IMG/VR virus record: IMGVR_UViG_3300046543_000451
Span: 1-64,000 of that record
DNA length: 64,000 bases
DNA from: a virus
Reading direction: 5' to 3' (one strand)
Shown here: positions 6,632 to 59,121 of the stretch, one piece after another
How the letters are laid out: every line of letters begins with the position of its first letter
Numbering within the stretch: the first letter of the stretch is position 1
The notes under the pieces: model-generated
Told to the model about the DNA's origin: nothing
The model's database searches: none
Seen by the model: the letters and a program-made list of their open reading frames with translations, nothing else
Program-made: the position numbers and the translations under genes

Positions 6632-6811
6632 GTGTACCAGTATTCCGTCGCGTACTATGCCCACCCGACATCGCGCCGGGTCGTCCATCGCACCGTGGTC
6701 GCCCATGATGCCGACGATGCCCGCGAGCGGGTGAGGGCCATCGACCCGAGATTCATTGCCACCGTCAAGTCGCCGCGCCGGGGCAAGGCTGTCGTGGAGG
6801 CCGGCAAGTGA
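6632..6811 (+). CDS. Hypothetical protein, 59 aa
   Basis: GTG at 6632 has a good CTGGAGG site 8 bases upstream. The product (MYQYSVAYYAHPTSRRVVHRTVV) is basic and beta-rich, and the stop overlaps the GTG of the ATPase gene. Function unknown. Confidence 0.55.
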   Translation: MYQYSVAYYAHPTSRRVVHRTVVAHDADDARERVRAIDPRFIATVKSPRRGKAVVEAGK

Positions 6812-39765: not shown

Positions 39766-40335
39766 TCAGAACAGGTTGTTCCAGCTCGATCCGTTCCAGC
39801 AGCGTGGCTTGTGGAGCGTGGTGTCGTAGTACATCTCGCCCTCGATCTCCACCCCCGAGTGCGGAGCGGCACTGTACTTCGGCAGCATTCCGAGAGATGG
39901 GATCGCCACCCCGCCGTCCACCCCCTCGGTGAACTCGAAGCGCCCGTTCTCCGACTGCTCGCGGAAGTTGACGTTGTAGCCGTCCGGCCCGCCACCCGTG
40001 TAGACCTGAATGGTCCCGGGGCTGGCGCTGGCGCTCTGCTGCACTACCCGAAGTTCGAGATTGGCTGGGCCAATGGACATGATGACGCCCGTCGCAGTCA
40101 TGTCCCCGTGACCCGTTCCACCGAAGATATAGACCGAGTCATCCTGAATGAGTTGGAAGCCGCCCTGCCCGTTGTTCCATCCGTTGTCCGAGTAGAGATC
40201 AAGTTCCGTGCTCGTCGTCGGCTGGATGTGGTCGACGACCATGTCGTCATTCCAGTCCACCGGGCGGACCAGCGTCGTGTCACCGCCGTCGGCGATGGCG
40301 CTGTGCTTGCTGTGGCTAATCCCGCTCGCGGTCAT
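39766..40335 (-). CDS. Structural/tail-fibre-like protein, 189 aa
   Basis: A Gly/Ser/Thr-rich beta protein whose end (YYDTTLHKPRCWNGSSWNNLF) is the tip motif found at the C-termini of many phage fibre and appendage proteins. Coupled by ATGA to the small Ig-like protein before it. Likely a surface appendage. Confidence 0.65.
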   Translation of the reverse strand: MTASGISHSKHSAIADGGDTTLVRPVDWNDDMVVDHIQPTTSTELDLYSDNGWNNGQGGFQLIQDDSVYIFGGTGHGDMTATGVIMSIGPANLELRVVQQSASASPGTIQVYTGGGPDGYNVNFREQSENGRFEFTEGVDGGVAIPSLGMLPKYSAAPHSGVEIEGEMYYDTTLHKPRCWNGSSWNNLF

Positions 40336-40646
40336 TCGCTCTCGACCAAGATCGTGTTCTCCGGGTCACTGTGCTGCGTGCTGCCGTCCGACCAGTTGAC
40401 CCGCCAGCGCATGACGTAGTTGCCGGGATCGAGCAGTTGGCCCGGCGACCAGTCGTAGCGGACCGCCCCAAGCGCCGGCGTGACGATGTTGGCCAAGCTG
40501 TTGACTGAGAGGCGTCGGTCGATCGCCGGGCGCATCTCGAAGTAGACGCTGGTCGCGCCGGTCAGGTTGAGGACGACCCCGTTGACGGCCAGCGTGCCGA
40601 AGATGGACGGCTGGTCATCGGATGCGACGAAGGTCAAGTCGGCCAT
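40332..40646 (-). CDS. BppU-N-like beta-sandwich protein, 104 aa
   Basis: The sequence (FGTLAVNGVVLNLTGATSVY, LDPGNYVMRWRVNWSDG) resembles the N-terminal domain of BppU baseplate upper proteins: a small beta sandwich that recurs as a phage adhesion module. It sits between the giant repeat protein and a fibre-tip protein. Confidence 0.65.
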   Translation of the reverse strand: MADLTFVASDDQPSIFGTLAVNGVVLNLTGATSVYFEMRPAIDRRLSVNSLANIVTPALGAVRYDWSPGQLLDPGNYVMRWRVNWSDGSTQHSDPENTILVESE

Positions 40647-44435: not shown

Positions 44436-44768
44436 TCAGCTCAGTCGAGCGAGGACATTCTCCGGGGTGATCCCAACGGCCGGGTAGTTCGGATCGTCGG
44501 TCACGATCTCCCAGCGCTCCTCGGTCGTCTTCCCGACCGCGATGTGCTCCTCGTCGTAGACGCGCTCGACGTGATCGAACCGGTGGATGGTGCCAGTCAC
44601 CCTGACGATCACCGGGTCGCCAGCCTTGACCGGCACCGGGTAGTCCTCGCGATTGGACTGGCTCACGCGCTCGTGGACCTCGGCGTAGTAGCCGTGGGCC
44701 AGCTCGAACGTACCTGTATCGCCATCGCTGATCTTCGTGCCGTCGCGGGCCTTGAAGGAAGTCGCCAT
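44436..44768 (-). CDS. Hypothetical structural protein, 110 aa
   Basis: A small beta-rich protein with DPVIVRVTGTIHRFDHVER and an acidic end. The stop is 2 bases before the giant repeat gene. Coupled to the protein at 44768-45262 with one base shared. Function unknown; likely part of the appendage set. Confidence 0.6.
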   Translation of the reverse strand: MATSFKARDGTKISDGDTGTFELAHGYYAEVHERVSQSNREDYPVPVKAGDPVIVRVTGTIHRFDHVERVYDEEHIAVGKTTEERWEIVTDDPNYPAVGITPENVLARLS

Positions 44769-45262
44769 CAGTTGACCTCCTCGAACTCCAGCGTGGCGTT
44801 CCAGCCGGTCAGCGTGGTCGGCGTTCCCTGAAGCTGGAGGACGAAGGAAAGGTCCAGCCCGATCAGGGGGCGGTCCTCCGGCAGAAAAATCTTCTCCCAG
44901 CCGTTGAGGTTGTTGAAGCCCTCGATGCCCATCACCGTCAGGGTGCCGGCGCCGTTGGCACTAGAGTCGGTTCCGCAGGTGGCTGCTGCGTTCGTCGTAC
45001 CGCCGGCAATGCCCGACGCCACGGCGTTGAGGACGACCGGAGCAGGCGTGGTGCTGGTCATCGTCCCGAAAGCCGACGCCTTCATGCCCCAGCGGACGGA
45101 GAGCTGTTGGCTCGTCGAGGTGCCGTTCTGGCCGCACGTCATTCGCAGGATGCGAAGGATCGACGCCCGGCTCGTGGCGGCGGTCGCGGCCCGGATGATA
45201 ATCATCTCGGAGTCCGCGATCACTGTCTGGTTCGCCATGGTGACCGTGTACAGACTGGACAT
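44768..45262 (-). CDS. Beta-rich structural protein, 164 aa
   Basis: A Thr/Ser/Gly-rich protein without charge clusters, ending GWNATLEFEEVN, like phage head or appendage decoration proteins. ATG at 45262 has GAGGAGG 5 bases upstream. No family recognised. Confidence 0.6.
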   Translation of the reverse strand: MSSLYTVTMANQTVIADSEMIIIRAATAATSRASILRILRMTCGQNGTSTSQQLSVRWGMKASAFGTMTSTTPAPVVLNAVASGIAGGTTNAAATCGTDSSANGAGTLTVMGIEGFNNLNGWEKIFLPEDRPLIGLDLSFVLQLQGTPTTLTGWNATLEFEEVN

Positions 45263-45272
45263 CGCGCCTCCT

Positions 45273-46550
45273 CTACTGGGCCAGCAGGGCTGGGCTCATG
45301 CGCCGGCTGGGGATGAAGCTGTTGGGCGACACGACGACTTGGTCCGCGACATCGGCAAACGTCGGCGCGTCAGTTGACGTTGCGTGGAACGAACCGATCC
45401 GGGTGACGACGTCGGCCGTCGTTGGAGCGTCAGTCGTCGTACCGGTCTTCACGGCGGCGGGCGTCCATGCGACCACCATGCCCATGAAGTCGACACAGGC
45501 GAGACGGGACTCACTGACCCGGGAGGCGCGGATCGTCGGACTGGTTCCGAAGTTGCCCGACGTCGGCAGTGATGCCGTCGTGAGCGTGCCGAACGTCGTC
45601 ACCCACAAACCGGTCTCGGCGCCATGCGCCCCGGCGTCACCGCCAACAGTGATCGAAGCCCCAGCCACAGTCGGGTTCGTCAGGGCGCCGACGTTCTGCA
45701 TCGTCTTCGTACCGGTCGCGATGTCCTCGCCTTGACGAACAAGCGACTGGACCGCGATGAGGGTATCCCCCGACCCGACCCCCAGCGTCGTATACGTCGC
45801 GAGGTTGGCGATGTAGTTGTCGGTCGCGCTGGCCGTGAAGTGCATCCCCTTCTTGGCGTTCGCCGCCTCGTTGGCCGAGGCAACACCAGCCGGAGGAACA
45901 TTCGAGACGCACTGCCAGATGTTGGTCGTCACGCCGTTGTTGTCGGTGACCCCGGTGACCGTGTTGTCGCTGATCGGCAGGGCCGTGTTGACCTTGGACG
46001 GGGCGAGGAAGCCCGCGCTATCAATGATGATGTCGTCGATATAGATGTCGGCCGCCGACGCTGCGGAGTCGTTGAACCCGATGTTGACGTTCAGCGTGCT
46101 CGTGATGGTTTGCGTCGCGTTGACCGCGGAGGCACCGTTGATCTGGAGCCAGTCCACGTTCGTCCCCGTGGTCGGTGGCCGGAGACCGATCCAGTACCAC
46201 TGGCCTGTCGAGAGCGCGGACGAGTTCGAGCCGATCTGAGTCGAGGCACCATCGAACACACCCAGCGTGCCCGTGCTGTTCAGTTTCAGCGTATACGTCG
46301 TGCCGCCGGCGCCGACGATGATCCGTGTCAGCGACGGCAGCGTCGCGATGTACAAGCCGAAGTGCAGCCAGTTGCCAGCCGCCCAGTTCGTGTAGGTGAA
46401 CGACCCGAACGCACCGCTCGCCGGGTTGCACCGCACCGATCGCGTGCCGGTCCGAGCTTGGACCGTGCTGAACGCGGTATTGCTACCGAGGGAAATACTT
46501 TCTGTTGAGGCATCGGCGGACTCGAATCCCGACATCGAGGTTACGGCCAT
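45273..46550 (-). CDS. LamG-like surface protein with repeat tail, 425 aa
   Basis: The N-terminal 180 residues are a LamG-like sandwich (FGLYIATLPSLTRIIVGAG, GQWYWIGLRPPT, DIYIDDIIID). A second beta domain follows. The C-terminus carries two copies of the TTTDAPTTADVVTR repeat used in the giant adhesin and ends in a basic-hydrophobic tail. Likely a surface-exposed structural protein. Confidence 0.65.
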   Translation of the reverse strand: MAVTSMSGFESADASTESISLGSNTAFSTVQARTGTRSVRCNPASGAFGSFTYTNWAAGNWLHFGLYIATLPSLTRIIVGAGGTTYTLKLNSTGTLGVFDGASTQIGSNSSALSTGQWYWIGLRPPTTGTNVDWLQINGASAVNATQTITSTLNVNIGFNDSAASAADIYIDDIIIDSAGFLAPSKVNTALPISDNTVTGVTDNNGVTTNIWQCVSNVPPAGVASANEAANAKKGMHFTASATDNYIANLATYTTLGVGSGDTLIAVQSLVRQGEDIATGTKTMQNVGALTNPTVAGASITVGGDAGAHGAETGLWVTTFGTLTTASLPTSGNFGTSPTIRASRVSESRLACVDFMGMVVAWTPAAVKTGTTTDAPTTADVVTRIGSFHATSTDAPTFADVADQVVVSPNSFIPSRRMSPALLAQ

Positions 46551-46559
46551 CTCAGCGGC

Positions 46560-47066
46560 TCACCGGTAGAGGCTCGCCAGTTCGTCGAAGTCGTCCTGCG
46601 TCGGGTGCGGCCCGTACCACGCGGGCGCCATGCAGGAAGGCGCGGAGGGGACGTCCGTCCGGTGATCGGGCATCCCCAAGGCGTGTCCGATCTCCTGACA
46701 GATGACGATCTGCGGCACGTTGCAGAGGTCGTTGACCGTGATCGCGGCCGACTTCAAGTGTCCGTTGGAGAGACTCACCGTCGTCCAACCGCACGGAGCG
46801 GTCAGGGACGCGATGTTCGAGATGGTCACCTTGATCCGGCCGCTGCCGCCGACCACCACGTCAGCGGTGCCCGACGCCGACCAGTCGGCCGCGGACACTG
46901 CGACCAGCGCGGGCCATGAGCCCCTAGTGTGATCGACGACCGCGAGGGTGAACGGATTGTTGGTCGCCCACTGGATGCCGCTGTCAGACCACGTCCCAGC
47001 GGCGTGGACTGTCCCAGTGAAGACGAGGGCAAGGGCAACCGCGATCCACAGGGCAAGACGCTTCAC
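46560..47066 (-). CDS. Secreted zincin-like protease with QExxH motif, 168 aa
   Basis: A signal peptide (KRLALWIAVALALVFTGTVH, about 2-21) precedes a metzincin-like domain. The zinc motif reads QEIGHALGMPDH (124-135), with Gln in place of the first His, followed by SCM (144-146) as a Met-turn-like segment. His128 and His135 remain. Gln variants exist in matrixin-like proteins, so some activity is possible. GTG at 47066 overlaps the glycosyltransferase stop. Secretion suggests action on the envelope. Confidence 0.7.
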   Translation of the reverse strand: MKRLALWIAVALALVFTGTVHAAGTWSDSGIQWATNNPFTLAVVDHTRGSWPALVAVSAADWSASGTADVVVGGSGRIKVTISNIASLTAPCGWTTVSLSNGHLKSAAITVNDLCNVPQIVICQEIGHALGMPDHRTDVPSAPSCMAPAWYGPHPTQDDFDELASLYR

Positions 47067-48112
47067 GACATCCCCTCCCTGAACACCGCAGCCCACTCTC
47101 CCGCGCGCTTGGCTGGATCGTACTCGGCGTCGAGACGCTCCTGAGCCGCTGCGACGAAGTCGGCCCGCATCCCCGGATTCCTTGCGAGCAGGGCGACCGA
47201 GCCGACCCACTCGGAGTGGCCGCGGGCGAGGAAGCCGTCCTTGCCGCTCCTGATGACGGAGTACGGGCTGTCGCCCATCATCCGCTGGGCCACGACCGGG
47301 ATGCCGGCGGCGGAGTAGTCGAGCCAGTGCAGCTCGCTCTTGAAGACATCGAAGTTGTCGCCCGACAAGGGTGCCAGCCCCACCACCGCGCGGGTGCTCA
47401 CCAGTGCCCGGGCGAAGTTCCGCAAGTCGTGGTCGTACGGGACGATCCGGCTGAACTCGCGGGGGATGGTCTGGCCGACGCCCTCGTCTCCCATCCAGAT
47501 CACTGGTAGCCGGGCCGCCGTGACCGCAGCGTGGGCATAGCCACCCTGATGACTGCCCCGGGCGTCATAAGCCCCGAAGTAGTCCGTCAGGCGCGCCCGG
47601 CTACCGTAGAAAATGGCCGTCGGAGCCACGTCCTGTCGAAAGTCCGTGGACGACGGCTGGTAGAGGTTCCTGTCGATCGCGTTCCGCACGACGATCGGCG
47701 GCCTGCGCGAGTAGACGGCGTACTGCTTGGCGAGAGCCGGCGTCGACACCGCGACCACGTCAGCTTCGCGGGCCATCTGCTCGACCTGTGCGACGTGCTT
47801 CAGGATCAGGTCGCGGTGGGGAATCTTCTTGTTCGGGCTGATGTCCCAGTCGTCGGTGTCGTAGACCCGGGCCTTGCCCCGGAGACCGGCTTCACGCCAA
47901 GCCTCCGGGGTGGTCGGGTCCTGATACCAGCGCCGGAAGACGACGACATCAGCCCAGTCGAGAGGCCGCCAGTCCTCCGCCGCCCGGGGGAAATCCGGGT
48001 AGCGGAGGTAGGCAGCTTCCACCCCGTACAGCGGCCAGTGGTCGCGAAACTGCTGGCCGCGGTAGTACGGGATCGGGGTCCACTCTTCGTGGCCCCAGTA
48101 GAGGACCTTCAG
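47063..48112 (-). CDS. Glycosyltransferase (GT4-like), likely CTG start, 349 aa
   Basis: The C-terminal half has GIPVVAQRMMGDSPYSVI and ALVSTRAVVGLAPLSGDNFD, as in GT-B transferases. An in-frame GTG at 48022 would cut off KVLYWGHEEWTPIPYYRG, which looks like the real first beta strand. The only upstream start is CTG at 48112, 4 bases after the previous stop, with an in-frame TGA beyond it. So the full enzyme probably starts at CTG. Confidence 0.65.
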   Translation of the reverse strand: MKVLYWGHEEWTPIPYYRGQQFRDHWPLYGVEAAYLRYPDFPRAAEDWRPLDWADVVVFRRWYQDPTTPEAWREAGLRGKARVYDTDDWDISPNKKIPHRDLILKHVAQVEQMAREADVVAVSTPALAKQYAVYSRRPPIVVRNAIDRNLYQPSSTDFRQDVAPTAIFYGSRARLTDYFGAYDARGSHQGGYAHAAVTAARLPVIWMGDEGVGQTIPREFSRIVPYDHDLRNFARALVSTRAVVGLAPLSGDNFDVFKSELHWLDYSAAGIPVVAQRMMGDSPYSVIRSGKDGFLARGHSEWVGSVALLARNPGMRADFVAAAQERLDAEYDPAKRAGEWAAVFREGMS

Positions 48113-48116
48113 GGGA

Positions 48117-48974
48117 CTAGCCCGAGAGGGTGATGGTGTCGGTCACGGTCAACGTGTCGCCGTTGACCACCGTCGCATCCGCGTTGAGGACTGATTCGAA
48201 CATCATCACCCCGACGCTCGTCAGGGTGCTGGTGCTGAACAGGCCCATCTTGTGCAGCGCGGTGATCGTGCCCGACGGGCTCCACTGCTTCTGGAGCGTC
48301 ATCGTGGCGTTGCCGTACGTGTGGGCGTACGTCGCGAGCGACCGGGTGACCGAGTTGGCGTTGTTCTCGCTTGCGAGCGCCGTGTCGGTCGCGTTGGCCG
48401 CCGCAGCATCCGTGGTGAGCGCCATGAAGCGCGGGCTCGGCGGTCCGCCTGCGCCGAGGATGAACGAACTGGTCGACGAAGGCGTGGTGCCCGTGCCGTC
48501 AGCCGCCGTCCACCACTGGTCGATGGTGATGACGTTGGTCGTGTTGCTGCCAACGTTGGCGTAGACCGGCGCGGTCGCCGTGTTGGTGATCGGCGCGTAG
48601 ACCCGGAGGCCGAGCAGGCCGAGCTGGGGCGTGCCTTGGTTGGATGCCGTCCAGACCGAGCCCGTGCCGGTGATGCTGGTCGCGGTGGCAGCCGTCGCCG
48701 GGGTGCCCTGACCGCCTGCCGGAATCTTCGCCCCGAGGGCGTCCGACCAGAGGTCGCGGCCGATGTTGGTCAGCAGGTTGTAGCTGATCCCGAGGTCCTC
48801 GATCTCGCCATCCTTGTGGATGATGATCGCGCTGACCTCGTTGCGGCCGAGGTGGAAGGAGTCCAGCGTCCGGCCCTGTCGCATCAGGCGGATAAGGGCG
48901 CCGTCCGGCTCGGCTTCGGTGTGGATGAAGGGATGCACATCGGGAATGATGTGGTCCCCAACGAGCTTGCTCAT
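48117..48974 (-). CDS. Structural protein, possible fibre or decoration, 285 aa
   Basis: An alpha/beta N-terminus (IRLMRQGRTLDSFHLGRNEV) is followed by a long Thr/Ser/Ala-rich beta region without charge, ending TLTVTDTITLSG. The composition resembles phage appendage proteins. It is coupled by ATGA to the zinc-ribbon gene upstream. Confidence 0.6.
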   Translation of the reverse strand: MSKLVGDHIIPDVHPFIHTEAEPDGALIRLMRQGRTLDSFHLGRNEVSAIIIHKDGEIEDLGISYNLLTNIGRDLWSDALGAKIPAGGQGTPATAATATSITGTGSVWTASNQGTPQLGLLGLRVYAPITNTATAPVYANVGSNTTNVITIDQWWTAADGTGTTPSSTSSFILGAGGPPSPRFMALTTDAAAANATDTALASENNANSVTRSLATYAHTYGNATMTLQKQWSPSGTITALHKMGLFSTSTLTSVGVMMFESVLNADATVVNGDTLTVTDTITLSG

Positions 48975-49324
48975 GCCTGATCCTCTCCGCCGATGGTCTC
49001 ATCAGCACTGCGGTCGATGCTCATCGGCTCGCGATCGGCGGCCGACAAGGTGGGCGTGTGGGCGACGATTCGCATCGTCTCCGGGTCAATCCCGTAGTCC
49101 GACTCGATCTTGGCTCGGTCCTTGTCACTGAGAGCAGCGAGGACGATCCAGTTCTCGGGCTGGAGGATGCGGGCGCCCGTCTCCTCGTCGAAGGTCACGC
49201 CCTTGCCGCAGATGCGGCAGGCGGTCGGGACTTCCAGTTCGCCGGCTGCGTCAGGTCCCTCGAAGCTGTTGCAGTTGGCGCACTGGAAGGCGTACTCGAT
49301 CTTCCCGTCATTGGGATTCGCCAT
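48971..49324 (-). CDS. Zinc-ribbon protein in the structural module, 117 aa
   Basis: CANC and CRIC about 20 residues apart form a ribbon in the first half. The rest is acidic and helical. ATG at 49324 has AGGAGA upstream and is preferred over a longer frame. Role unknown. Confidence 0.6.
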   Translation of the reverse strand: MANPNDGKIEYAFQCANCNSFEGPDAAGELEVPTACRICGKGVTFDEETGARILQPENWIVLAALSDKDRAKIESDYGIDPETMRIVAHTPTLSAADREPMSIDRSADETIGGEDQA

Positions 49325-49392
49325 GGCGGTTCTCCTGATTGGTCTGGGTGCCTTGAAGCGACGCTCGGGGTGACGACGGGCCACCATAGGCG

Positions 49393-49716
49393 TCAGGCCA
49401 CTACGACCGAGGCCGTCGCGACCGAGGAGTCGTCACTCGTCTTGTAGATGCCGACGGTCCACGTCCCGGCCGACGGGAAGATCAAGTTGTCCCACTCGGC
49501 AATCTGGGCGGCACTGGTCGACAGGACCGGACCCTTCAGATCGTTCGAGCCCGACTTGGACGCCTTGAAGTAGTACGTCACTTGCGGAGAGGCCGGATAG
49601 TTGGCCGTGCTGTATCCGGTGGCCGTGTTGCTGGCGACGGCCGAGCAGGTGACCCGGGTAACCGTCTTGACCGCAGTGATGCTGCCCGATGCGGGCGTGA
49701 TGGCGACTGCCGCCAT
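49393..49716 (-). CDS. Ig-like decoration protein, 107 aa
   Basis: A Thr/Ser/Ala-rich beta sandwich (TRVTCSAVASNTATGYSTAN, GTWTVGIYKTSDDSSVATAS) of the size of phage Ig-like capsid or tail decorations. ATG at 49716 has AGGAGGA upstream. It is between glycosyltransferase genes, so it could be a glycosylated surface protein. Confidence 0.6.
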   Translation of the reverse strand: MAAVAITPASGSITAVKTVTRVTCSAVASNTATGYSTANYPASPQVTYYFKASKSGSNDLKGPVLSTSAAQIAEWDNLIFPSAGTWTVGIYKTSDDSSVATASVVVA

Positions 49717-49730
49717 GGTTCAGTCCTCCT

Positions 49731-50435
49731 TCAGCCCCTTCGGGGCCATGCTTGATTGCGGAGGCGCTCGATGTCGAGACGCCAGTCGCCTTGATGACCG
49801 CCCTTGTCGAACGGTGTCTGGAATGTCTCGCCACCGGCCTTGGGTCCGCCCCACTTCTGGGCGTAGTAGGCATCGTTGGCGCCGTGGGTCGCGCCGTTGG
49901 CAGCGCGCAGGACCGGATCGGACATGATGGTCGCCGATCCGACGTGCTTGCCGGTGAAGCCGGTCTCGACCGTGACGACTCCGGCAAGTTGCATCCGGCG
50001 GTGCCAGTCGAGGTCTTCGTCGTAGGCCGGGTGGATGTTCTCGTCCGCCCAGCCCGCGGCCTGAAGCGTCGGGCGGGTGATCGCGAACGACGCCATCCCA
50101 AACATGAAGTAGACCGCCCCGGCCCGGGGATCGACCGCCTCCTCCAGCCGGCCGAGGTCCCCGGGCCCGAACTCGATGTCGTGGTTGACGATCAGCCACC
50201 ACGGGGCCTGCGGGGTGACCTTGATCCCGAGGTTCCAGCTCGCCGCGACGCCGAGGTTGTGGCCGGGCCGGATGACTCGATCGAGGACCATGTCGTGGCC
50301 CATGTCCCAGTCGACCGTCACGTCGCCGTTGTCGATCACGACGATCGTGTCGATCGGGTGGTCGATGGACCGAAGCATCCGGTCGAGCAGTTCCGGCTGG
50401 GTCAGGATCGGGACGATCAGCGCCGGGATGCTCAC
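49731..50435 (-). CDS. GT2-family glycosyltransferase, 234 aa
   Basis: A GT-A fold start (ALIVPILTQPELLDRMLRSI, DTIVVIDNGD), GHNLGVAASWNLGI, and WWLIVNHDIEF with the HDIEF acting like a DxD metal site. YDEDLDWHRRMQLAG holds the catalytic ED. It transfers one sugar to an unknown acceptor. GTG start overlaps the upstream stop. Confidence 0.8.
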   Translation of the reverse strand: MSIPALIVPILTQPELLDRMLRSIDHPIDTIVVIDNGDVTVDWDMGHDMVLDRVIRPGHNLGVAASWNLGIKVTPQAPWWLIVNHDIEFGPGDLGRLEEAVDPRAGAVYFMFGMASFAITRPTLQAAGWADENIHPAYDEDLDWHRRMQLAGVVTVETGFTGKHVGSATIMSDPVLRAANGATHGANDAYYAQKWGGPKAGGETFQTPFDKGGHQGDWRLDIERLRNQAWPRRG

Positions 50436-51067
50436 GGCGGCCAGTTCCGCCAGTATTTATGCACGAGGACCGGCTCGAAGTGGAACTTCACGCCGTCGGC
50501 GTACATCCGGTTCCACATGTCCGCGTCGCCCGCGTAGCCGCGATCCCAGCAGTCGAGAGCGAAGCGGTAGCCGAGGCTCCGTCGCCAGAGGTTCGCGCCG
50601 TTCGCGAGTTGGCCGTCGCCCGGCGGCCACGCGCCGTAGTTCTGCTGGGTGTAGACGCCGTCCTTGATCGTGGTGCTGATGCCGTAGACGTGGTCGGCGC
50701 CTGACTTATCGGCGGCTTCGAGCAGGAAGCGATGGTGGTTCGACATGAACTCGTCGTCGTCGCCGAGGACCGCGATCCACTCACCCTGCGCCCGGTCGAG
50801 CCCGAAGTTGATGGCCTCCAGACCGTACAGGCCCCAAGCCGTGTCGTGATCCTCGGGGTACGGGTAGTGCGGCAGGTTCCAGAACCAGAGATTGTCGTGC
50901 TGCTTCATCAGCTCGCGGACGCCGGCCTCGGTCTCGCGATCCGTGCCGTCGCCGACGACGAGGACTTCCTGATCCTGCTCGGTCTGGCCGAAGACGCTCG
51001 GCAATGCCCGTTTGAGCAAGAGGTCCGCCCGGTTGTAGGTCGGGATGATGACGCTGATGAGGGTCAC
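50432..51067 (-). CDS. GT2-family glycosyltransferase, 211 aa
   Basis: The N-terminus LISVIIPTYNRADLLLKRAL and GEWIAVLGDDDEF with a DDD metal-binding motif identify a GT2 enzyme. The later DCWDRGYAGDADMWNRM is the acceptor-side region. GTG at 51067 overlaps the acyltransferase stop, so these two are coupled. Confidence 0.85.
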   Translation of the reverse strand: MTLISVIIPTYNRADLLLKRALPSVFGQTEQDQEVLVVGDGTDRETEAGVRELMKQHDNLWFWNLPHYPYPEDHDTAWGLYGLEAINFGLDRAQGEWIAVLGDDDEFMSNHHRFLLEAADKSGADHVYGISTTIKDGVYTQQNYGAWPPGDGQLANGANLWRRSLGYRFALDCWDRGYAGDADMWNRMYADGVKFHFEPVLVHKYWRNWPP

Positions 51068-51744
51068 GCTGCGCCTGCTGCTGCCGCCACGATCCGCTGG
51101 TGGAGGGCTTCGATCCGGGGGTGGGACTCGGGCGGATAGCCGTCCCGGTAGTAGGCCGTCCACGGGTACTGGATCGAGAGCCAGCGGAGATCGGTCACCG
51201 GCTTCAGGTTGCCGCCGACGAGCGCCATGCCCGGCGGGACGTTCTTGGTGATCGTCGTGTTGGCTCCCACGAACGAGCCGTAGCCGACGATCACGCCGGC
51301 GACGACCACGCAGCCGATCGCGAGCACCGCGCCCTCCCCGATGACCGCCTCTTGGTTGACGTTGCTCGGTGGCAGCTTGTTGTCGGTGATGTAGCAGTTG
51401 GCGTAGACCCGGGCGAAGTCCGAGATCATGCCCTTGGTCATCTCGACCCGGCCGTGGATGCGGACGTAGTCACCGACGATGCCGCCGCCTTCGAGCGAGC
51501 TGCCCGTCCCGATCCGTAGGTTCCGGCCGATCACGTTCCCCGCCCGGATGAGAACGTGATGGCCGGTTTCGAGGTCCGGACCGATCGTCGAACCGCCCTC
51601 GATGATCGAGTGGCTGCGGATGATCGACTTGCCGTTGACGACCAGCGGCCCATGCTCGGAGCCGATGATGCAGAACGGCTCGACCTCGACATCCGGTCCG
51701 AGGTGGACGTTGCGGTGGATGATGGCCGTCGGGTGAATGCTCAT
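51064..51744 (-). CDS. Hexapeptide-repeat (LpxA-like) acyltransferase, 226 aa
   Basis: Many imperfect hexapeptides ([LIV]-G-x4), such as IGPDLE, IGRNLR, IGTGSS, VGDYVR, IGEGAV, IGCVVV, VGYGSF, build a left-handed beta-helix. It resembles LpxA-type and sugar O/N-acyltransferases, with HPTAIIHRNVHLG at the start. It probably acetylates a sugar or sugar nucleotide. It sits between glycosyltransferases. Confidence 0.8.
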   Translation of the reverse strand: MSIHPTAIIHRNVHLGPDVEVEPFCIIGSEHGPLVVNGKSIIRSHSIIEGGSTIGPDLETGHHVLIRAGNVIGRNLRIGTGSSLEGGGIVGDYVRIHGRVEMTKGMISDFARVYANCYITDNKLPPSNVNQEAVIGEGAVLAIGCVVVAGVIVGYGSFVGANTTITKNVPPGMALVGGNLKPVTDLRWLSIQYPWTAYYRDGYPPESHPRIEALHQRIVAAAAGAA

Positions 51745-52013
51745 CGCATCATCAACTGCTGCCCGAAGTCGCGCGGGTGGTCGTCTGTGCCGTGGAGGAA
51801 TGCGAGACGCTCGGGAGACTCATCCACGACGACTCGCTTGTAGAGCAGCCAGACGTAGGTCGCGTAGTCCTTGGGCATCCCGTGACGGTCGAGGTTCAGT
51901 CGCGGCTCTCCGGTCGGGGCCGATCCGAAGCCCGACACGCCAGAGTAGACCGCGTAGAGCCGCGCCAACTGGTCGGAGACCCCAACAGGAAGGGGCGGCG
52001 GGATGTAGCCCAT
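51741..52013 (-). CDS. Hypothetical protein, 90 aa
   Basis: ATG at 52013 gives a product with Pro-rich start (MGYIPPPLPVGVSDQLARLY) and helical end. It is coupled by ATGA to the acyltransferase gene. A longer frame to 52178 would overprint the next gene and has no ribosome site. Function unknown. Confidence 0.55.
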   Translation of the reverse strand: MGYIPPPLPVGVSDQLARLYAVYSGVSGFGSAPTGEPRLNLDRHGMPKDYATYVWLLYKRVVVDESPERLAFLHGTDDHPRDFGQQLMMR

Positions 52014-52020
52014 CAGTGGA

Positions 52021-52236
52021 TCACGGCTTATGCCAGCCCGTTCGCTGCCACCAAGTCTCGGGGATGTCGTCGTAGAAGGAGTTGATGAGCCGCGCTGGAT
52101 GAAGTTGGCATCCGTAGAAGGGCGACTCGCGCCCTGTTCGGTTTTCGTACCAACGGGCGATTCGGTTGATTGGACCACCGAGCACGCCGCACAGCTTGAT
52201 GCCAGCGTTCCACAAGAGGAACCGGAACGCCCTCAT
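52021..52236 (-). CDS. Small hypothetical protein, 71 aa
   Basis: A basic protein with an amphipathic start (MRAFRFLLWNAGIKLCGVLG) that may lie on a membrane. ATG overlaps the SGNH stop. No family recognised. Confidence 0.5.
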   Translation of the reverse strand: MRAFRFLLWNAGIKLCGVLGGPINRIARWYENRTGRESPFYGCQLHPARLINSFYDDIPETWWQRTGWHKP

Positions 52237-52784
52237 CCGCGAGCCGCGGCGTCGAGCGCCTTCTGGACGGTCTCGGCGTAGACCTCGTGGCCGCGCTCCG
52301 AGAGGTGCAGGCCGTCCGCCAGCAGGAACCCGTCGCCCGCGCCGAACGCCGCTCGGACGTCGATGAGGCGGACGCTCTCGTCATCGGCCACGCGGCGGAC
52401 GATCTGGTCATAGTGGGCCACGTCCTCGGCGAACCCGGCGTTGCGGAACGTCGGTGTCAGCGAGCACAGCATCGGCTCGGCCTTGAACGTCCGAGACCGG
52501 TCGACCATCTCGATCAGGTTGACCTTGAAGGCCGCCGGGCTGACCCGGTGGAGGCCCCGGTCGGTCTTCCAGCGGTTGGCATCGTTGTGGCCGAACTGGA
52601 TGATGACGATCGAGGGTTCCTGCTCCTGAACGTCCTTCGGGAAGCGCTCCAGCCCAAGCCGGGTCGTGTCGCCGGGAACGCCACGAGACAGAACGCGCTT
52701 GGACTGGAGCAGGAACGGCCACGCCTTGGCGCTGTCAGCGAGGAGCTGGCCGTAGGTGATCGAGTCGCCGATGCAGACGATCAT
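52233..52784 (-). CDS. SGNH/GDSL hydrolase, 183 aa
   Basis: All four blocks are visible: GDSITYG (Ser8), a Gly in SRGVPGD, GHND (65-68, Asn67) and DGLHLS (Asp157, His160). This gives a complete catalytic set for an esterase or deacetylase. No signal peptide is seen, so it may act inside the cell or on the virion, for example on acetylated sugars made by the neighbouring acyltransferase. Confidence 0.85.
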   Translation of the reverse strand: MIVCIGDSITYGQLLADSAKAWPFLLQSKRVLSRGVPGDTTRLGLERFPKDVQEQEPSIVIIQFGHNDANRWKTDRGLHRVSPAAFKVNLIEMVDRSRTFKAEPMLCSLTPTFRNAGFAEDVAHYDQIVRRVADDESVRLIDVRAAFGAGDGFLLADGLHLSERGHEVYAETVQKALDAAARG

Positions 52785-53560
52785 GCCATCACGAAGTCGT
52801 AGCTGTAAGTCGGCCGGGGAAGGTCGGGCCGGTCATCCTCCTGACCGGTCTTCTCGACGATCTCGATCCGGTCGTTGAGGAACGCCCGGCTGGCCTTGAT
52901 CTGGGCCTCGGTTCGGAACAGCGTCCGATGCTCGATCTCGTAGTCCCTATTCATGTCCTGACCCTCGATGAGCCGCATCGAGCCGTCGCCGCCCCAGAGC
53001 CAGACGGAGTGGCCGTCCTTGACCGCCGCGTACCACCAATGGCGCTTCTCGACGCGCATCCCGGGGAGTGCCCGCCAGAGGTGAGGAATGAACACGCGCT
53101 CAACCGCCTGTTCGACGTGCCACTGGCCGACGGCGCTGCGATCGAGTGGCCGGCGCGGATTGAGCGGAGTCACGTAGGGGACATTGATGACGTCGCCGCG
53201 GTGCTGGCTCAGGAAGTTGCGGATGATCTCGCGGTCGGCCGTGATGACGTGGTCCGCGTCCACAGTGGCGATCCAGTCGCTGTCCGCCGATGCGATGGCG
53301 AGCAGGGCGGAGCGCTTGGCGACTTGCCCGGCCCACAGGAAGTCCGGCTGGACGATGCGGCACTCGATGTTGACCGCCGCGGCTGCCTCACGAATGGCGG
53401 CAATCTGCTCCTTCGGGCTATGCGGCGTGGCGCCGGGATAGCGGACGTAGGCGCCGTCGAGGAAGACCACTCGGTCGGCGATCTGGCCGAGGCCGCGAAC
53501 ACAGGCGTCGAGGTCCTCGGGACGCTCGTTCCACGCGCACAGGGCCCCCGTGACGATCAC
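52781..53560 (-). CDS. Glycosyltransferase GT2-like, 259 aa
   Basis: IVTGALCAWNERPEDLDACV opens a GT-A-like domain, and DWIATVDADHVITADREII contains the DAD metal motif. VYHPHLWRAL-like and RHWWYAAVKDG segments follow. GTG at 53560 overlaps the small gene stop. The donor and acceptor cannot be read from sequence. Confidence 0.75.
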   Translation of the reverse strand: MIVTGALCAWNERPEDLDACVRGLGQIADRVVFLDGAYVRYPGATPHSPKEQIAAIREAAAAVNIECRIVQPDFLWAGQVAKRSALLAIASADSDWIATVDADHVITADREIIRNFLSQHRGDVINVPYVTPLNPRRPLDRSAVGQWHVEQAVERVFIPHLWRALPGMRVEKRHWWYAAVKDGHSVWLWGGDGSMRLIEGQDMNRDYEIEHRTLFRTEAQIKASRAFLNDRIEIVEKTGQEDDRPDLPRPTYSYDFVMA

Positions 53561-53775
53561 TGCTTGAAGATCATGTCGCCGATCGGCTCCGGCAGGACCT
53601 CGATCGTCGTCTCGGGAACGTACTGCGACGCGGGCACAGAGCCGTCCGCGTTGGCCTTCGGCTGAACGATCAGCGTTCGCTGCGGCTGGGACTCCCACTC
53701 CACGATCCCGACGATCCTCCCGACGAGGCCGGTGCGGATATCGCGGACCGTCATGCCGAACAACTGGTCCTTCAT
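53557..53775 (-). CDS. Small hypothetical protein, 72 aa
   Basis: A beta-rich protein (MKDQLFGMTVRDIRTGLVG) with Pro/Glu-rich end. ATG at 53775 overlaps the amidotransferase stop; the stop overlaps the glycosyltransferase GTG. KOW/Tudor-like barrel is possible but not shown. Confidence 0.55.
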   Translation of the reverse strand: MKDQLFGMTVRDIRTGLVGRIVGIVEWESQPQRTLIVQPKANADGSVPASQYVPETTIEVLPEPIGDMIFKQ

Positions 53776-54647
53776 GCGTCGAGGAGGTCGTACCACGGGG
53801 CTCGGCTGAACGGCTTGGCTGGATCAGGCACGTAGCCGATCCGGGCCTCGATGAACGACCGGACTGGCTCGACCTGAGCCCACTTCCAGAGCGGGATCGG
53901 GAAACCGCGCTTGTCCTTCCGGTCGATGATCGCGTCGGGCACGATGCCCCGGACCAGTTCGCGCAGGTGGCGCTTGCCGACGCGCTCGTGGATCGGCAGG
54001 CTCAGGCCGTACTCGACGATGCGCTGGTCGGTGAACGGGGCCCGGGCCTTGATGTCGAAGGCCCCCAGCATCCGGTCATCAACCGCGAGGAGGTCGGGAA
54101 GCATCGCGAAGTCATAGTTGAGGGCTTCGCGCAGGGTGGTCGGATACCCGTCCGGCAGGGTGTAGTCCTCGTAGCCGACCGGCGGCTCCTCGCCGGCGAC
54201 GATCATCTGGCGGGCGTAGCCGCCGAACAGCTCGTCGCTGCCCTCGCCGGAGATCGCCATCGTGATCCCCTGCGAGGCAAGGTACTTGGCGACCATCCAC
54301 TGGCCGAAGGCGCCCATGCCCGGCCGCAGCCCCTTCAGGTGCGGCTTCATGGCGTCGAAGTTCTCGACGAAGTCCTCGGGCACGATCCCGATCTCGTAGT
54401 GGTCGTGGTGCCGGGCGAGGTCGGCGTACTCGCGCTCGTCGAAGCCCGGCTCGTCGTAGTAGGCCGTGAACGTCGGCAGGCCCGGACGGATGTGGTCGGC
54501 GACGCAGGCGACGGTCGAGGAGTCCAGCCCGCCGGAGAGGACGATCCCGACCTTGTCGTCATCAGCGTGCGCTTCGTCGAGGATCACGTCGATCGCCGAG
54601 CCGATCAAGTCAACAAGGTCGGTTGTGCCCAGAGTCGCCAGTGCCAT
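53772..54647 (-). CDS. Asparagine-synthetase-like ATP-pyrophosphatase domain, 291 aa
   Basis: The PP-loop SGGLDSS (38-44) and GEGSDELFGG (134-143) are those of the AsnB synthetase domain. FDIKARAPFTDQRIVEYG and DRKDKRGFPIPL match its C-terminal part. The N-terminal class-II glutaminase domain is absent, so ammonia must come free or from a partner. Similar enzymes in O-antigen clusters amidate uronic-acid sugars. ATG at 54647 overlaps the epimerase stop. Confidence 0.85.
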   Translation of the reverse strand: MALATLGTTDLVDLIGSAIDVILDEAHADDDKVGIVLSGGLDSSTVACVADHIRPGLPTFTAYYDEPGFDEREYADLARHHDHYEIGIVPEDFVENFDAMKPHLKGLRPGMGAFGQWMVAKYLASQGITMAISGEGSDELFGGYARQMIVAGEEPPVGYEDYTLPDGYPTTLREALNYDFAMLPDLLAVDDRMLGAFDIKARAPFTDQRIVEYGLSLPIHERVGKRHLRELVRGIVPDAIIDRKDKRGFPIPLWKWAQVEPVRSFIEARIGYVPDPAKPFSRAPWYDLLDA

Positions 54648-55546
54648 CACTTCACTCCCGCAAGATGGGTGTACGTAGTCTCGACGCCGTTGGCCTTGTA
54701 CCATTCGACGGCCTGACGGATGCCCGAGACGAGCGGGGTCCGGGCTGACCAACCGAACTCCGCCAGCGTCTCGGACGGATCGAGCAGAATGGTCTCGGCG
54801 TCGTCGGGTCCACGCGAGAGGCGGGTCGGGAGCGAAGGCTGGACGCCCACGGCCCCCACCATCTCGTTGTAGATGTCCTCGATGGCGACATCGCCGCCAG
54901 AGGCAACGTGGTAGACGCCACGCCCCTGCGTCGCGGCCTTGACGGCGACATCGACGAGGTCGTCGATGTAGACGAAGTCCCGGCGGGAGTCGACGACCGT
55001 GCAGGGCTCGCCCTCCGACAACCGCTTGAAGAAAGTCGGGACCGGGCCGGACAGGTTCCGGGGACCGTAGATGTTGGCGAGCCGGAGGCTGACGTAGTCC
55101 ACGCCGGAGTCCCGGATGTAACTCTCGCCGGCCGTCTTGCTGACGGCGTAAGACCCGGTCGGCCGGAGAGGGGCTTCCAAGCCGACCGGGCTGTCAGGGT
55201 TCAGGCCGTAGCAGAGGCTGGTCTGGAAGTAGACGATCTTGGCGCCAGTCCGTTGTGCTTCCCGCACAACATTGATCGTCCCGAGGACGTTGGTCGAGGC
55301 GTCCCGCTCCCACTCGGCGCGGTCCTTGTACGAGGCCGCGCAGTGGTAGATGACATCGAACTCCTTGGACCCGATCGCGTTCGCCAGACCGGTCCGGATG
55401 TCTCCCTCGTAATAGTCGATCGAGGTGTTCCCGATCCGACCGGTCGAGAGGTTGTCAATCCCATCGACCTCGTGGCCCTGCTCTTGCAAGGAGTCCGCAA
55501 TCGTGCTTCCGATGAAGCCAGCGATCCCGGTGATGAACACACGCAA
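54647..55546 (-). CDS. NAD-dependent sugar epimerase/dehydratase (extended SDR), 299 aa
   Basis: The NAD motif GIAGFIG (7-13), an Asp after strand 2 (D31), TSLCYG with Ser110 and YAVSK (Tyr133, Lys137) show an active extended SDR. It resembles nucleotide-sugar 4-epimerases. It likely makes the sugar donor used by the neighbouring transferases. TTG at 55546 has GGGAGA 8 bases upstream; GTG two codons later is an alternative. Confidence 0.85.
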   Translation of the reverse strand: MRVFITGIAGFIGSTIADSLQEQGHEVDGIDNLSTGRIGNTSIDYYEGDIRTGLANAIGSKEFDVIYHCAASYKDRAEWERDASTNVLGTINVVREAQRTGAKIVYFQTSLCYGLNPDSPVGLEAPLRPTGSYAVSKTAGESYIRDSGVDYVSLRLANIYGPRNLSGPVPTFFKRLSEGEPCTVVDSRRDFVYIDDLVDVAVKAATQGRGVYHVASGGDVAIEDIYNEMVGAVGVQPSLPTRLSRGPDDAETILLDPSETLAEFGWSARTPLVSGIRQAVEWYKANGVETTYTHLAGVK

Positions 55547-55559
55547 GGTGCGTCTCCCT

Positions 55560-56015
55560 CTACGCCTCGGCCCAGCCGAATGTCAGTGCCTGCGGGCTGA
55601 TCGCCCCCGATGGCGCCCCCAGCGCCACGACCTCTTGGAGCACGAGGTATCGCGTGTGCTCCCCGACCCCATCCATGACCCCCGTGTCAAAGATGAACTT
55701 ACGCCCTGCCGTCAAGTCCATGGTAGCGACTGTCGAGACCGTGTTCTTGGGCGTTGCGCCGGTATCGGTCACGCCGAACTTGATGGTGACGCCGGTCGGC
55801 AGGCTGCCGGTGCAGATGACGTAGAAGTTCGTCGCCCCGTGGGTCGGAGCCGAGTCGCACCGGAGCGCCACCCAGCGCTCGTAGCTGACACTGCCCGGCA
55901 GGACGTTGCCGCCCGAGACCGCGTCGGCATCGGTCAGGGAGGCGGACGACTGGCCCGTGTGCTCGGTCCCGGCGTTCGTCCCGGTGAAGACGCTCATCGA
56001 GATGGTCGCGGTCAC
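55560..56015 (-). CDS. Beta-rich structural/decoration protein, 151 aa
   Basis: A Thr/Gly/Ala-rich protein with alternating strands (TGVTIKFGVTDTGATPKNTV) and no catalytic motif, coupled to the portal by ATGA overlap. Its tail resembles other structural proteins of the module. Likely a head or appendage protein. Confidence 0.6.
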   Translation of the reverse strand: MTATISMSVFTGTNAGTEHTGQSSASLTDADAVSGGNVLPGSVSYERWVALRCDSAPTHGATNFYVICTGSLPTGVTIKFGVTDTGATPKNTVSTVATMDLTAGRKFIFDTGVMDGVGEHTRYLVLQEVVALGAPSGAISPQALTFGWAEA

Positions 56016-57550
56016 TTCGGAGGTGCCTTCTTGGCCGGAGCCGGGGCTACGGGCTTCGGCTGGGCGGCGGCAACTTCCTTGGCGTTCTGGGCCGCCGCGT
56101 CGGCGTTGTCCGCGTCGATCTGGCCCTGATTCTCCGCCACGTCCTTCTGGGCGTCGGCCGCGATCTGGGCGAGCTGCTCCTCACCGAGATACTTGTTGGT
56201 GGTGATGTCGAGCATGCCCTTGGGGGTGTTCGTCAGGAGGTGGTTGAAGACGTTGTCCTCGTCCTGCGGATCGCCGATCGGCGCCCGGCCGTCCGTCCGG
56301 CGGGCCTCGTTGACCGACTTGGTCGGGACGCCCGGCATGGCGACCTTGTTGATGTTGGCCTTCGCCAGCGTCTCGTCGAGGGTCAGGTCGGCGAACTTGA
56401 AGGCGAGGTTGGCGTCCTTGCCACCGAACGACTTGTCCCAGACGATCTCCCGGGTCATGTAGTTCTGGAACAGGCTCATCAGGGGCCGCAGGCCACGGTC
56501 CTCGGTGTTGCTGGTCTGGGTCTCGGCCGTGCTCCGGTTGACGTCGAACGTGATCGCGAGGTCCATCGGGCTCAGTCCGAGCACGGTGGCGATGCAGCGG
56601 ATCAGGTAGTCCTGCCACTCGCGGAACTGCATGTCCCGGTTGCTGCCGCGGAAGGGCATCCACGACGGACCCTTGTAGCCACCGATGATCGCCATCGCGC
56701 CCTGCCCGAAGATTTCGGACTGGAACTTGGACTGGGCCTTCTGGACGTCCTCGGGGCTGGCTGACTCGCCGATGTTGAGCACGCCGTCCGGGGCCGCGCC
56801 CATGACCTGCCGGCGGTTGTACTCGTTGCCCTGAAGCTCGCTCTCGATGATCGAGCGGAGAATCTGCATCGGGGAGAGTCCGACAGCACTGTTGGCGCGC
56901 TGGTTGGCGATCATGTAGACCATGTCGTCGTTCCGAAAGGTCGCACGCACCGTGCCGTCGGGAATGAAGTAGTAGCGAGGCTTCTCGGGATCGGAACCAT
57001 CCCAGCGCTCGTCTACCGCGATCCAGTCCCCGCGACTGGGCCAGAGTTCAGCGATCGTCCCATCCGGGTAGCGGACCTTCTCGATCGGGGCGCCGTCGAG
57101 GGTCAACAGCTCGTCGATCACGGTGGCCGCGAACGACTGGAACGAGTCGAGCTTGGCGGAAGGCTGGTTGAACAGTTCGAGCAGGCGCTTCCGGTTCGTG
57201 GCCGAGAAGCGCTTGGTGTTGTCGAAGGGGACGATGTCCCAGTCCGCGCTCGACACTTGGTTCTTGCGGATGTTGATGCCGGCGAAGACCCACGGGGTCT
57301 GGGCATAGGCCCGGTAGGTGTCCGAGCCACTCGGCATCCGCAGCGCCGTGTTCTGGGTGACCATCGTGAACGCGCCGACCGTCGTGTCGCCGAGGACGTT
57401 GCCGGTGATGTACGGCAGGCCGGCGGGGCTCGTTCGGGGGCGGAGGGCCTTCAAGACCTGCTGCATGAACGTCGGCTTGATCTCGGGCACGACGACAGGC
57501 ACGAGGGCCCGCGGCGACGGGCGCTGGTCGGGATGAAGGTCCTGCATCAT
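56012..57550 (-). CDS. Portal protein, HK97/phi29-like fold, 512 aa
   Basis: GLSPMQILRSIIESELQGNEYNRR-like stem helix, RGSNRDMQFREWQDYLIRCI and VLGLSPMDLAIT are typical HK97-type portal segments. The C-terminus is Ala/Gln/Lys-rich and disordered. It directly follows the large terminase with an ATGA overlap. It forms the dodecameric DNA channel. Confidence 0.9.
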   Translation of the reverse strand: MMQDLHPDQRPSPRALVPVVVPEIKPTFMQQVLKALRPRTSPAGLPYITGNVLGDTTVGAFTMVTQNTALRMPSGSDTYRAYAQTPWVFAGINIRKNQVSSADWDIVPFDNTKRFSATNRKRLLELFNQPSAKLDSFQSFAATVIDELLTLDGAPIEKVRYPDGTIAELWPSRGDWIAVDERWDGSDPEKPRYYFIPDGTVRATFRNDDMVYMIANQRANSAVGLSPMQILRSIIESELQGNEYNRRQVMGAAPDGVLNIGESASPEDVQKAQSKFQSEIFGQGAMAIIGGYKGPSWMPFRGSNRDMQFREWQDYLIRCIATVLGLSPMDLAITFDVNRSTAETQTSNTEDRGLRPLMSLFQNYMTREIVWDKSFGGKDANLAFKFADLTLDETLAKANINKVAMPGVPTKSVNEARRTDGRAPIGDPQDEDNVFNHLLTNTPKGMLDITTNKYLGEEQLAQIAADAQKDVAENQGQIDADNADAAAQNAKEVAAAQPKPVAPAPAKKAPPK

Positions 57551-59121
57551 CGGTTGAAGCGACCGAAGATCGCGTTGTTGATGAAGGCCGACTCGTTCCG
57601 GCGGTTGGCAAGGGTCACGGCTTCCTCCTTGCTGTACCGCTCGACCTCGATGCCTTCGAGCATCTTGGCGAGGTAGGCCGGGACGTACTCGGTCCCCGTG
57701 TTGAAGCGGAGGTACTCGCCGGGGCTCGTCTGAGCGTCTACGACGCCCTGTGACGGCCCGGAAACCGCGGCGAAGGACCCGGACACCGCTCGGATGTCCA
57801 TCGCCAGTCCAAGGGCGTCGATCTGGTCGTCGTGGCCCTTCGGGAAGTTGAGCATCTCGGCTTCGAGTTCGCCGCCCTTCAGCGAACGATGGTGATGGAC
57901 CCGGTGGGACTCGTAGCGGGCAGCCACCGACCGGGCCCGGGTCCGCTTGTCGATGTCGGTCTTGCGGCCGACCACCGGAAGCGTCGTCTCGTTGAGGAGG
58001 TCCTGTACCAAGGTGCTCTGGTGCTGGTTGGTCTCGATGATGATCTTGCTGATCCCGGGGAAGGCCGCAGCCCCGTCCTTGACGAACTGGCGATGGCCCG
58101 ACTCGGTCTTGACCCGGTAGGTTCCGAGGACCCAGTGCTCATGGAACTCGTCCTCCGCCACCACGACCCGGGCCGTCCAGTCGGCCCGCTCCCGTTCGCT
58201 GGACGCGAGGTCGACGCCCATGGTGAGGATGAAGCGCCGGTCTCGGGGCAGCTCGTCGAAGTAGTCGAACCAGTCCTTGCGGAAGATCAGGCCCTCGCGC
58301 TGACCCGAGATGTCGTTGAGGTACGAGCAGGCGAAGTTGTCCCAGCCGACGTCATCACGCTCGGCGTACAGCCGCTCCAAGGGCCAGACGTCCGGCCAGT
58401 AGCTCACGTCGTTGCCGTCGTCGTCGAGCGTGATGGCCGGGATGACGAGGTGCGGCCAGTGGTTGGTCTCGATCAGGCGCTCGTACAGGTCGCCCTCGAC
58501 CCAGCGCGTCCCGACGACGATGATCGAGGCGCCCTCGGCCGCCTGCGCCGGCTTCATCGTCTTCCAGAACCAGTCCTCGGTCTTCTCCCGGCGGTCGATG
58601 TTGTAGGTGTTCTCGGCGTCGAGGATGTCGTCGCAGAAGATGAGGTCGAAGCGCTTGGACACCGCCGACGAGTTGTTGACCCCGCCGGTCACCATCGTCC
58701 GGTCCTTCGACGTCGTCCAGCGGCTGCCCTTGCGGAGCCACTCGGCGTCCGACCACTTGGACTCGCCGCGGAGGTTGCCGAAGACGTCGCGGAACGCCTC
58801 GGACTCCGACAGGGTCCAGCGGATGGCGTTCGACATCGCCTCGGCCTTCTTGTCCTTCTGGCTGAACAGGCCGATGCGGATGTCCGCGTTCTTGGCGACC
58901 TGATGGGCCAGCCAGCCGGTCGTCAGGCTGGTGGTCTTGGTCGAGCCGCGGGGCGCCAGCACGACGCCGTTCTCGCGCTTGGCGATGCGCTCCTCGACGA
59001 ACTCGACCATCTGCCGGATGTGGGGCGCCGGCTTGTAGCCGAAGACGTACTCCTGAAAGGCGTAGTAGTCAGTCCTCGCCAACTGCTTCAGGAGGTTCCG
59101 ACGGAGCATCTCCCTGTCCAT
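57547..59121 (-). CDS. terL: Terminase large subunit, 524 aa
   Basis: ATPase motifs: Walker A APRGSTKTT (55-63), Walker B FDLIFCDD (158-165). Nuclease motifs: MGVDLASSE (about 305) and GHDDQIDALG near 448. This is a full-length packaging motor plus nuclease. It overlaps terS by 53 bases; an internal ATG four codons later is possible. The order terS-terL-portal is complete. Confidence 0.95.
   Translation of the reverse strand: MDREMLRRNLLKQLARTDYYAFQEYVFGYKPAPHIRQMVEFVEERIAKRENGVVLAPRGSTKTTSLTTGWLAHQVAKNADIRIGLFSQKDKKAEAMSNAIRWTLSESEAFRDVFGNLRGESKWSDAEWLRKGSRWTTSKDRTMVTGGVNNSSAVSKRFDLIFCDDILDAENTYNIDRREKTEDWFWKTMKPAQAAEGASIIVVGTRWVEGDLYERLIETNHWPHLVIPAITLDDDGNDVSYWPDVWPLERLYAERDDVGWDNFACSYLNDISGQREGLIFRKDWFDYFDELPRDRRFILTMGVDLASSERERADWTARVVVAEDEFHEHWVLGTYRVKTESGHRQFVKDGAAAFPGISKIIIETNQHQSTLVQDLLNETTLPVVGRKTDIDKRTRARSVAARYESHRVHHHRSLKGGELEAEMLNFPKGHDDQIDALGLAMDIRAVSGSFAAVSGPSQGVVDAQTSPGEYLRFNTGTEYVPAYLAKMLEGIEVERYSKEEAVTLANRRNESAFINNAIFGRFNR

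Follow-up and report, generated by a model that had tools for sequence, protein, structure and literature searches.

A variable sugar-gene cassette at a fixed site in the head module of an uncultured tailed-phage lineage

Sugar genes between portal and capsid protease

We analyzed a run of sugar-related genes in a viral DNA stretch of 64,000 nucleotides, positions 1 to 64,000 of IMG/VR record IMGVR_UViG_3300046543_000451 (69,375 bases in IMG/VR), here called the window. The virion genes on its minus strand are ordered as terminase, portal, a small protein h151, the sugar cassette, an immunoglobulin (Ig)-like protein, and beta-rich and fibre proteins, followed by the glycosyltransferase (GT) GT4e, capsid protease, putative capsid protein, and connector and tail genes (Table 1).

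A preliminary description, made from the sequence, had placed a set of sugar enzymes between portal and capsid protease, interleaved with beta-rich proteins. The epimerase, Asn_synthase domain, three GT2-like transferases and one GT4-like, acyltransferase, and SGNH hydrolase were all found at the positions it gave, on the minus strand and with family support, in a tightly packed single run with beta-rich proteins interspersed. Their catalytic motifs are intact by sequence inspection (GxxGxxG/YxxxK, SGGLDSS, GDS/GxND/DxxH, DDD, DAD). The inventory was right in the enzymes it named, but a further GT4 transferase, GT4e, lies outside its range and had been overlooked.

The AsnB-like assignment holds for the Asn_synthase domain, but the N-terminal glutaminase (GATase II) domain of glutamine-dependent AsnB is missing, as the protein starts ~37 residues ahead of SGGLDSS and TIGR01536 matches from profile position 249. 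Without it, the enzyme would have to draw on free ammonia or work with a partner.

From the epimerase through GT2c, 4-bp overlaps between genes predominate, and most cassette neighbours overlap by 4 bp or abut. Promoter-like and terminator-like sites show no excess over shuffled sequence. This arrangement would fit one transcription unit.

A fixed site with changing content

Relatives were drawn with a portal alignment and then with portal and h151 alignments, not by sugar genes, except for locus L088, which was drawn via GT2c. The portal alignment search gave 410 relatives in IMG/VR. No relative was found by portal search of 84,980 prokaryote genomes (GTDB), and cultured phages yielded only remote portal relatives by tblastn and no match at the DNA level. 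Thus, the lineage is uncultured, and its host is not assigned here. Gene calling used a codon model, families were assigned by profiles built for this analysis, and representatives were named via Pfam and PHROGs. Here 'interval' refers to the complete stretch from h151 to the Ig-like protein, of which 61 are non-redundant at 95% DNA identity. As portal or h151 was the query for 60 of these loci, the sampling did not favour sugar genes.

A glycosyltransferase is present in 59 of the 61 intervals and at least one sugar-related family gene in 60, while the 200-bp interval of L047/L216 contains only a 59-aa open reading frame (ORF). The 61 intervals fall into 42 distinct gene contents, and their length varies from 200 to 8,967 bp with a median of 3,335 bp, as compared with median gaps of 212 bp for terminase-portal and 10 bp for portal-h151 at the same loci. 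Short-chain dehydrogenase/reductase (SDR) enzymes occur in 22 intervals and methyltransferases in 26, including a rhamnosyl O-methyltransferase family; DegT aminotransferases and hexapeptide acyltransferases are found as well. Homing-endonuclease-like ORFs, named by sequence appearance only, lie inside or at the edge of the cassette in 11 intervals (for example, L022:11833-12582 and L025:11959-12414), and it is possible that they drive cassette exchange. Separately, a sulfotransferase-looking ORF (L053:6794-7294; family C43, in 6 of 61 intervals) has no PHROGs match and was named by eye only.

Content similarity (mean Jaccard) is 0.16-0.27 below ~80% portal identity, 0.43 above it, and 0.74 above 90%. 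Terminal transferases differ among L179, L182, and L183, whose portals are 97-98% identical, and on the maximum-likelihood portal tree at least 22 changes of terminal transferase type are needed. L088 matches the window in all seven cassette genes at a portal identity of only 54%, and the six-gene block epimerase-AsnB-GTa-SGNH-acyltransferase-GT2b is common to L015 and the window at 59-71% identity. L004 (portal 70% identical) contains two other genes, then GT2b, GT2c (67% identical to that of the window), and the Ig-like protein, and the cassette site of L002 holds another transferase, GT2b, and a gene resembling methyltransferases.

Most cassette families are under purifying selection, with median dN/dS (nonsynonymous to synonymous rate ratio) of 0.12-0.24; the values for these families and for GT4e (0.09) are near that for portal (0.18). 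Family C3 is less constrained, at a median of 0.51 (12 close pairs). The comparison with related phages that the preliminary description had proposed thus shows the sugar cassette as a lineage-wide trait inside the morphogenesis run, not a chance insertion.

GT4e is a core gene. It was found in all ten long relatives at 43-60% identity, or in 11 of 11 genomes counting the window, and always lies between the fibre module (p104) and the protease-capsid pair; in L284 and L292 it was missed by the gene caller, and a separate search placed it in the same gap. G001, the record of L216, keeps GT4e although the cassette is missing and no GT2 or epimerase match occurs anywhere in its 59,858 bases, supporting a core-plus-cassette design. 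Relatives free of any sugar genes but identical in structural proteins had been named as evidence against the preliminary description; this one cassette-less relative retains the core GT4 and has structural proteins that are related without being identical.

Table 1 Features of the cassette and its surroundings in the window
Feature	Position	Strand	Basis
SDR nucleotide-sugar epimerase/dehydratase	54647-55546	-	PF01370 8.9e-42; best PDB match 2q1w (Bordetella WbmH) 1.9e-78
AsnB-type ATP-dependent amide synthetase domain	53772-54647	-	PF00733 (Asn_synthase) 2.6e-49; TIGR01536; SGGLDSS motif
72-aa ORF, no assigned function	53557-53775	-	coding score; 4-bp overlaps with neighbours
GTa, GT-A type glycosyltransferase	52781-53560	-	no Pfam match; phrog_7009 glycosyltransferase 8.6e-20
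GDSL/SGNH hydrolase (esterase or deacetylase)	52233-52784	-	PF13472 5e-27
Hexapeptide (left-handed beta-helix) sugar acyltransferase	51064-51744	-	PF00132 1.8e-16; best PDB match QdtC 3fs8 5.1e-28
GT2b, GT2 glycosyltransferase	50432-51067	-	PF00535 6.2e-19; relatives at same place in L002, L004
GT2c, GT2 glycosyltransferase, final gene ahead of Ig-like protein	49731-50435	-	PF00535 5.8e-5; phrog_29879 1.3e-32
GTd, GT4-like glycosyltransferase	47063-48022	-	PF13524 4.6e-6; phrog_7162 2.7e-19
GT4e, core GT4 glycosyltransferase directly ahead of capsid protease	38531-39721	-	phrog_2170 1.5e-37
Terminase large subunit (backbone anchor)	57547-59121	-	tblastn to annotated phage TerL genes
Portal protein (backbone anchor; query for relatives)	56012-57550	-	tblastn to annotated portal genes
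h151, small conserved beta-sandwich protein, left cassette border	55560-56015	-	directly after portal in 154/163 loci; model pLDDT (predicted local distance difference test) 89.5
Ig-like protein, right cassette border	49393-49716	-	right border in all 61 intervals; model pLDDT 92.9, Ig-type sandwich
285-aa beta-rich protein	48117-48974	-	41% identical in L016, 63% in L066
Exported metzincin-like protein (predicted)	46560-47066	-	sequence motif and hydrophobic N-terminus only
Fibre-like protein, two C-terminal Thr-rich repeats	45273-46550	-	phrog_2448 3.8e-7; sequence
LamG-like and Thr-rich repeat fibre, 1262 aa	40646-44434	-	sequence; tandem repeats
p104, end of fibre module	40332-40646	-	kept ahead of GT4e in relatives
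Capsid maturation protease (DUF6582 region), putative	37036-38472	-	PF20223 1.2e-7; gene order; function inferred from position
Putative major capsid protein	35708-37039	-	position after protease; same order in 10 relatives

Border, fibre and other neighbouring genes

Fold searches with h151 gave no convincing match, and those with the Ig-like protein gave generic Ig-type sandwiches only. Neither matched a named phage decoration protein, and neither was identified as one. For the putative major capsid protein, searches of IMG/VR and cultured phages returned no matches.

The protein listed as metzincin-like had been described as a secreted protease. Its N-terminus is hydrophobic and its sequence includes a metzincin-like motif, but the zinc motif HExxHxxGxxH/D is altered by Gln in place of the first His (QEIGHALGMPDH), and the protein has no family match and no PDB match at E 1. 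Its protease activity is uncertain.

A Thr-rich repeat (TTDAPTTADVATR-like) is common to three virion-type proteins, the two repeat-bearing fibre proteins of Table 1 and a third, distant from them (22454-25939). In L088, which shares the sugar cassette of the window, a fibre protein has a collagen-like Gly-Ala/Pro-Thr repeat (L088:11525-13942). The 164-aa fibre neighbour in the window (44768-45262) is 84% identical to L086:18413-18907, although portal identity between the two phages is just 47%, which suggests that the fibre module is mobile as well.

A Mom-family DNA modification gene lies on the plus strand (7974-8600; PF25680, E 4.5e-35), adjoining a MoxR/CbbQ-type AAA protein (6808-7977) and a CobT VWA-type protein (8597-10381); it was not found in the ten long relatives. 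Contig IMGVR_UViG_3300028802_000007 (130,935 bases; L192 and L194) contains two terminase-portal-h151 sets ~75 kb apart with different neighbours, and is either a chimeric assembly or two related phages joined.

Likely targets and meaning of the cassette

The closest PDB match of the acyltransferase, QdtC, is an amino-sugar N-acetyltransferase. The closest PDB relatives of the epimerase are Bordetella WbmH and WbmG (2pzk, 7.3e-63), SDR enzymes for an O antigen containing diacetamido-uronic acid (PMC2279256). The enzyme set suggests an amidated, N-acylated sugar as the cassette product. The enzymes are thus similar to those of Bordetella O-antigen chemistry, but the wbm locus serves a bacterial lipopolysaccharide polymer pathway, whereas no polymer assembly genes were recognised in the phage cassette.

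We conceived that the phage probably glycosylates its own virion proteins by a two-tier system of a core GT4 and an exchangeable cassette. GT4e would attach the initial sugar to a virion protein, and the cassette between h151 and the Ig-like protein would edit host nucleotide sugars and extend or cap the sugar placed by GT4e. With the window's genes, the SDR enzyme would epimerise, the ammonia-using AsnB-type domain would amidate carboxyl groups, the hexapeptide enzyme would add N- or O-acyl groups, and the SGNH esterase would trim, before soluble GT2 enzymes carry out the transfer. Recombination would swap the cassette, giving different glycans on closely related particles. The embedding among morphogenesis genes, already part of the preliminary description, is coherent and lineage-wide; late expression and virion use, which it had read from position, we likewise infer from where the genes lie, from the solubility of their products, and from the lack of recognised assembly machinery.

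Remodelling of host surface glycans for receptor masking, superinfection exclusion, or easier release, which the preliminary description had offered alongside virion use, now appears unlikely. The enzymes do match those of O antigen and exopolysaccharide, and the envelope is a conceivable target of the SGNH esterase and the exported protease-like protein. However, hydropathy indicated membrane-like segments for just 12 of the 296 cassette genes, one of them a 51-aa ORF with two segments, and the same hydropathy survey gave no multi-span protein of flippase (GtrA-like) size. No Wzx/Wzy, ABC exporter, or priming transferase family was found in the scanned cassette representatives, nor by hydropathy of the 296 genes. 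Lasting serotype conversion is also unlikely since no tyrosine integrase (PF00589) matched in 11 records, which may be fragments and were not searched for serine integrases. The site also keeps its place among morphogenesis genes, and GT4e, the core enzyme, lies close to the capsid gene. Glycosylation of phage DNA by these transferases is very improbable. Glycosyltransferases of DNA-hypermodifying phages are known (Pyle et al. 2024, as cited in PMC12619734), and the window phage encodes the Mom-type gene. However, that gene is present in 1 of 11 genomes, and cassette genes sit in the head module, not among replication genes. The Mom product is a non-sugar adenine modification. No base hydroxymethylase of the thymidylate-synthase family (PF00303) was found in the 11 records, again possibly fragments; a Tet_JBP (PF12851) search was also negative but uninformative, as its control was silent too. 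Together, the nearly all soluble proteins, the lack of recognised export or polymer machinery, tyrosine integrase, and PF00303 matches, and the head-module position favour direct modification of virion proteins in the cytoplasm.

The site could instead be a tolerated insertion hotspot gathering host-derived sugar genes of little use (morons), which would be compatible with the high turnover, the 11 of 61 intervals that have homing-endonuclease-like genes, and the existence of L216, a relative that does without a cassette. We regard this as improbable, more so than host-surface remodelling and less so than DNA glycosylation, because the accumulated genes are almost exclusively sugar-related, most families are under purifying selection, the order of a six- to seven-gene block is kept in three phages, and 59 of 61 intervals retain at least one glycosyltransferase.

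Several points weigh against virion glycosylation. No acceptor emerged from the comparison. Thr residues of the repeats had been proposed as modified, but Thr-rich fibres do not track the cassette, as the fibre of cassette-less L216 is 19% Thr and that of L088, which shares the window's seven-gene cassette, is the collagen-like one; the repeat as obligatory acceptor was therefore rejected as a correlate. L028, L056, and L066 (portals 47-52% identical) lack h151 and the cassette there, and their portals lead to other small and fibre-like genes. Virion and host-envelope roles are not separable by sequence with certainty, and the lineage is known from genes alone. The gene families rest on the profiles made for this analysis, and several cassette ORFs are unnamed.

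To our knowledge, virion glycosylation has been demonstrated in few cultured phages only. In mycobacteriophages (Che8 and relatives; Freeman et al. 2023, as cited in PMC11256854 and PMC12619734), virion glycans are reported on capsid and tail-tube subunits. Phage-encoded glycosyltransferases are common to those phages and the window phage, although the glycan is demonstrated there and the window phage is known by genes alone; the GT genes of the Che8-like phage Maravista lie near the genome 3′ end, unlike the head-module genes here. Both phage-encoded glycosyltransferases and linkage of their genes to virion structural genes, a supporting but not universal feature, are present in the window lineage, the linkage being seen in the orders portal-h151-cassette-Ig and p104-GT4e-protease-capsid.

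Pontimonas phage phiPsal1 and Synechococcus phage S-CBS4 have a head-module GT4-GT2-methyltransferase trio adjoining capsid or portal genes, with homologues of GT4e (24-26% identity) and GT2c (29-35%). However, theirs is a single small set without annotated epimerase, AsnB, or acyltransferase. Serotype conversion by temperate phages (gtrABC) also uses phage-borne glycosyltransferases, but no flippase-like membrane protein or tyrosine integrase was found in the window lineage, and its genes are in the head module. Our literature search found no description of phage glycan loci in head modules, and as far as it reached, an exchangeable cassette that is shared across a lineage, sits at a fixed site, and is paired with a core transferase appears to be undescribed.

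More tentatively, this uncultured tailed-phage lineage, with over 400 contigs by portal, may carry a phage counterpart of the bacterial serotype locus, with conserved genes at its borders, one core transferase, and cassettes that can be exchanged and that include epimerases, aminotransferases, methyltransferases, acyltransferases, AsnB, and glycosyltransferases. Under diversifying pressure, every phage would thereby have a virion glycan type of its own. If so, virion glycosylation would be the rule in a widespread uncultured lineage, encoded by a serotype-locus-like locus, and particle recognition in nature by hosts, surfaces, and grazers would become testable through the cassette types on the near-identical backbones of L179, L182, and L183.

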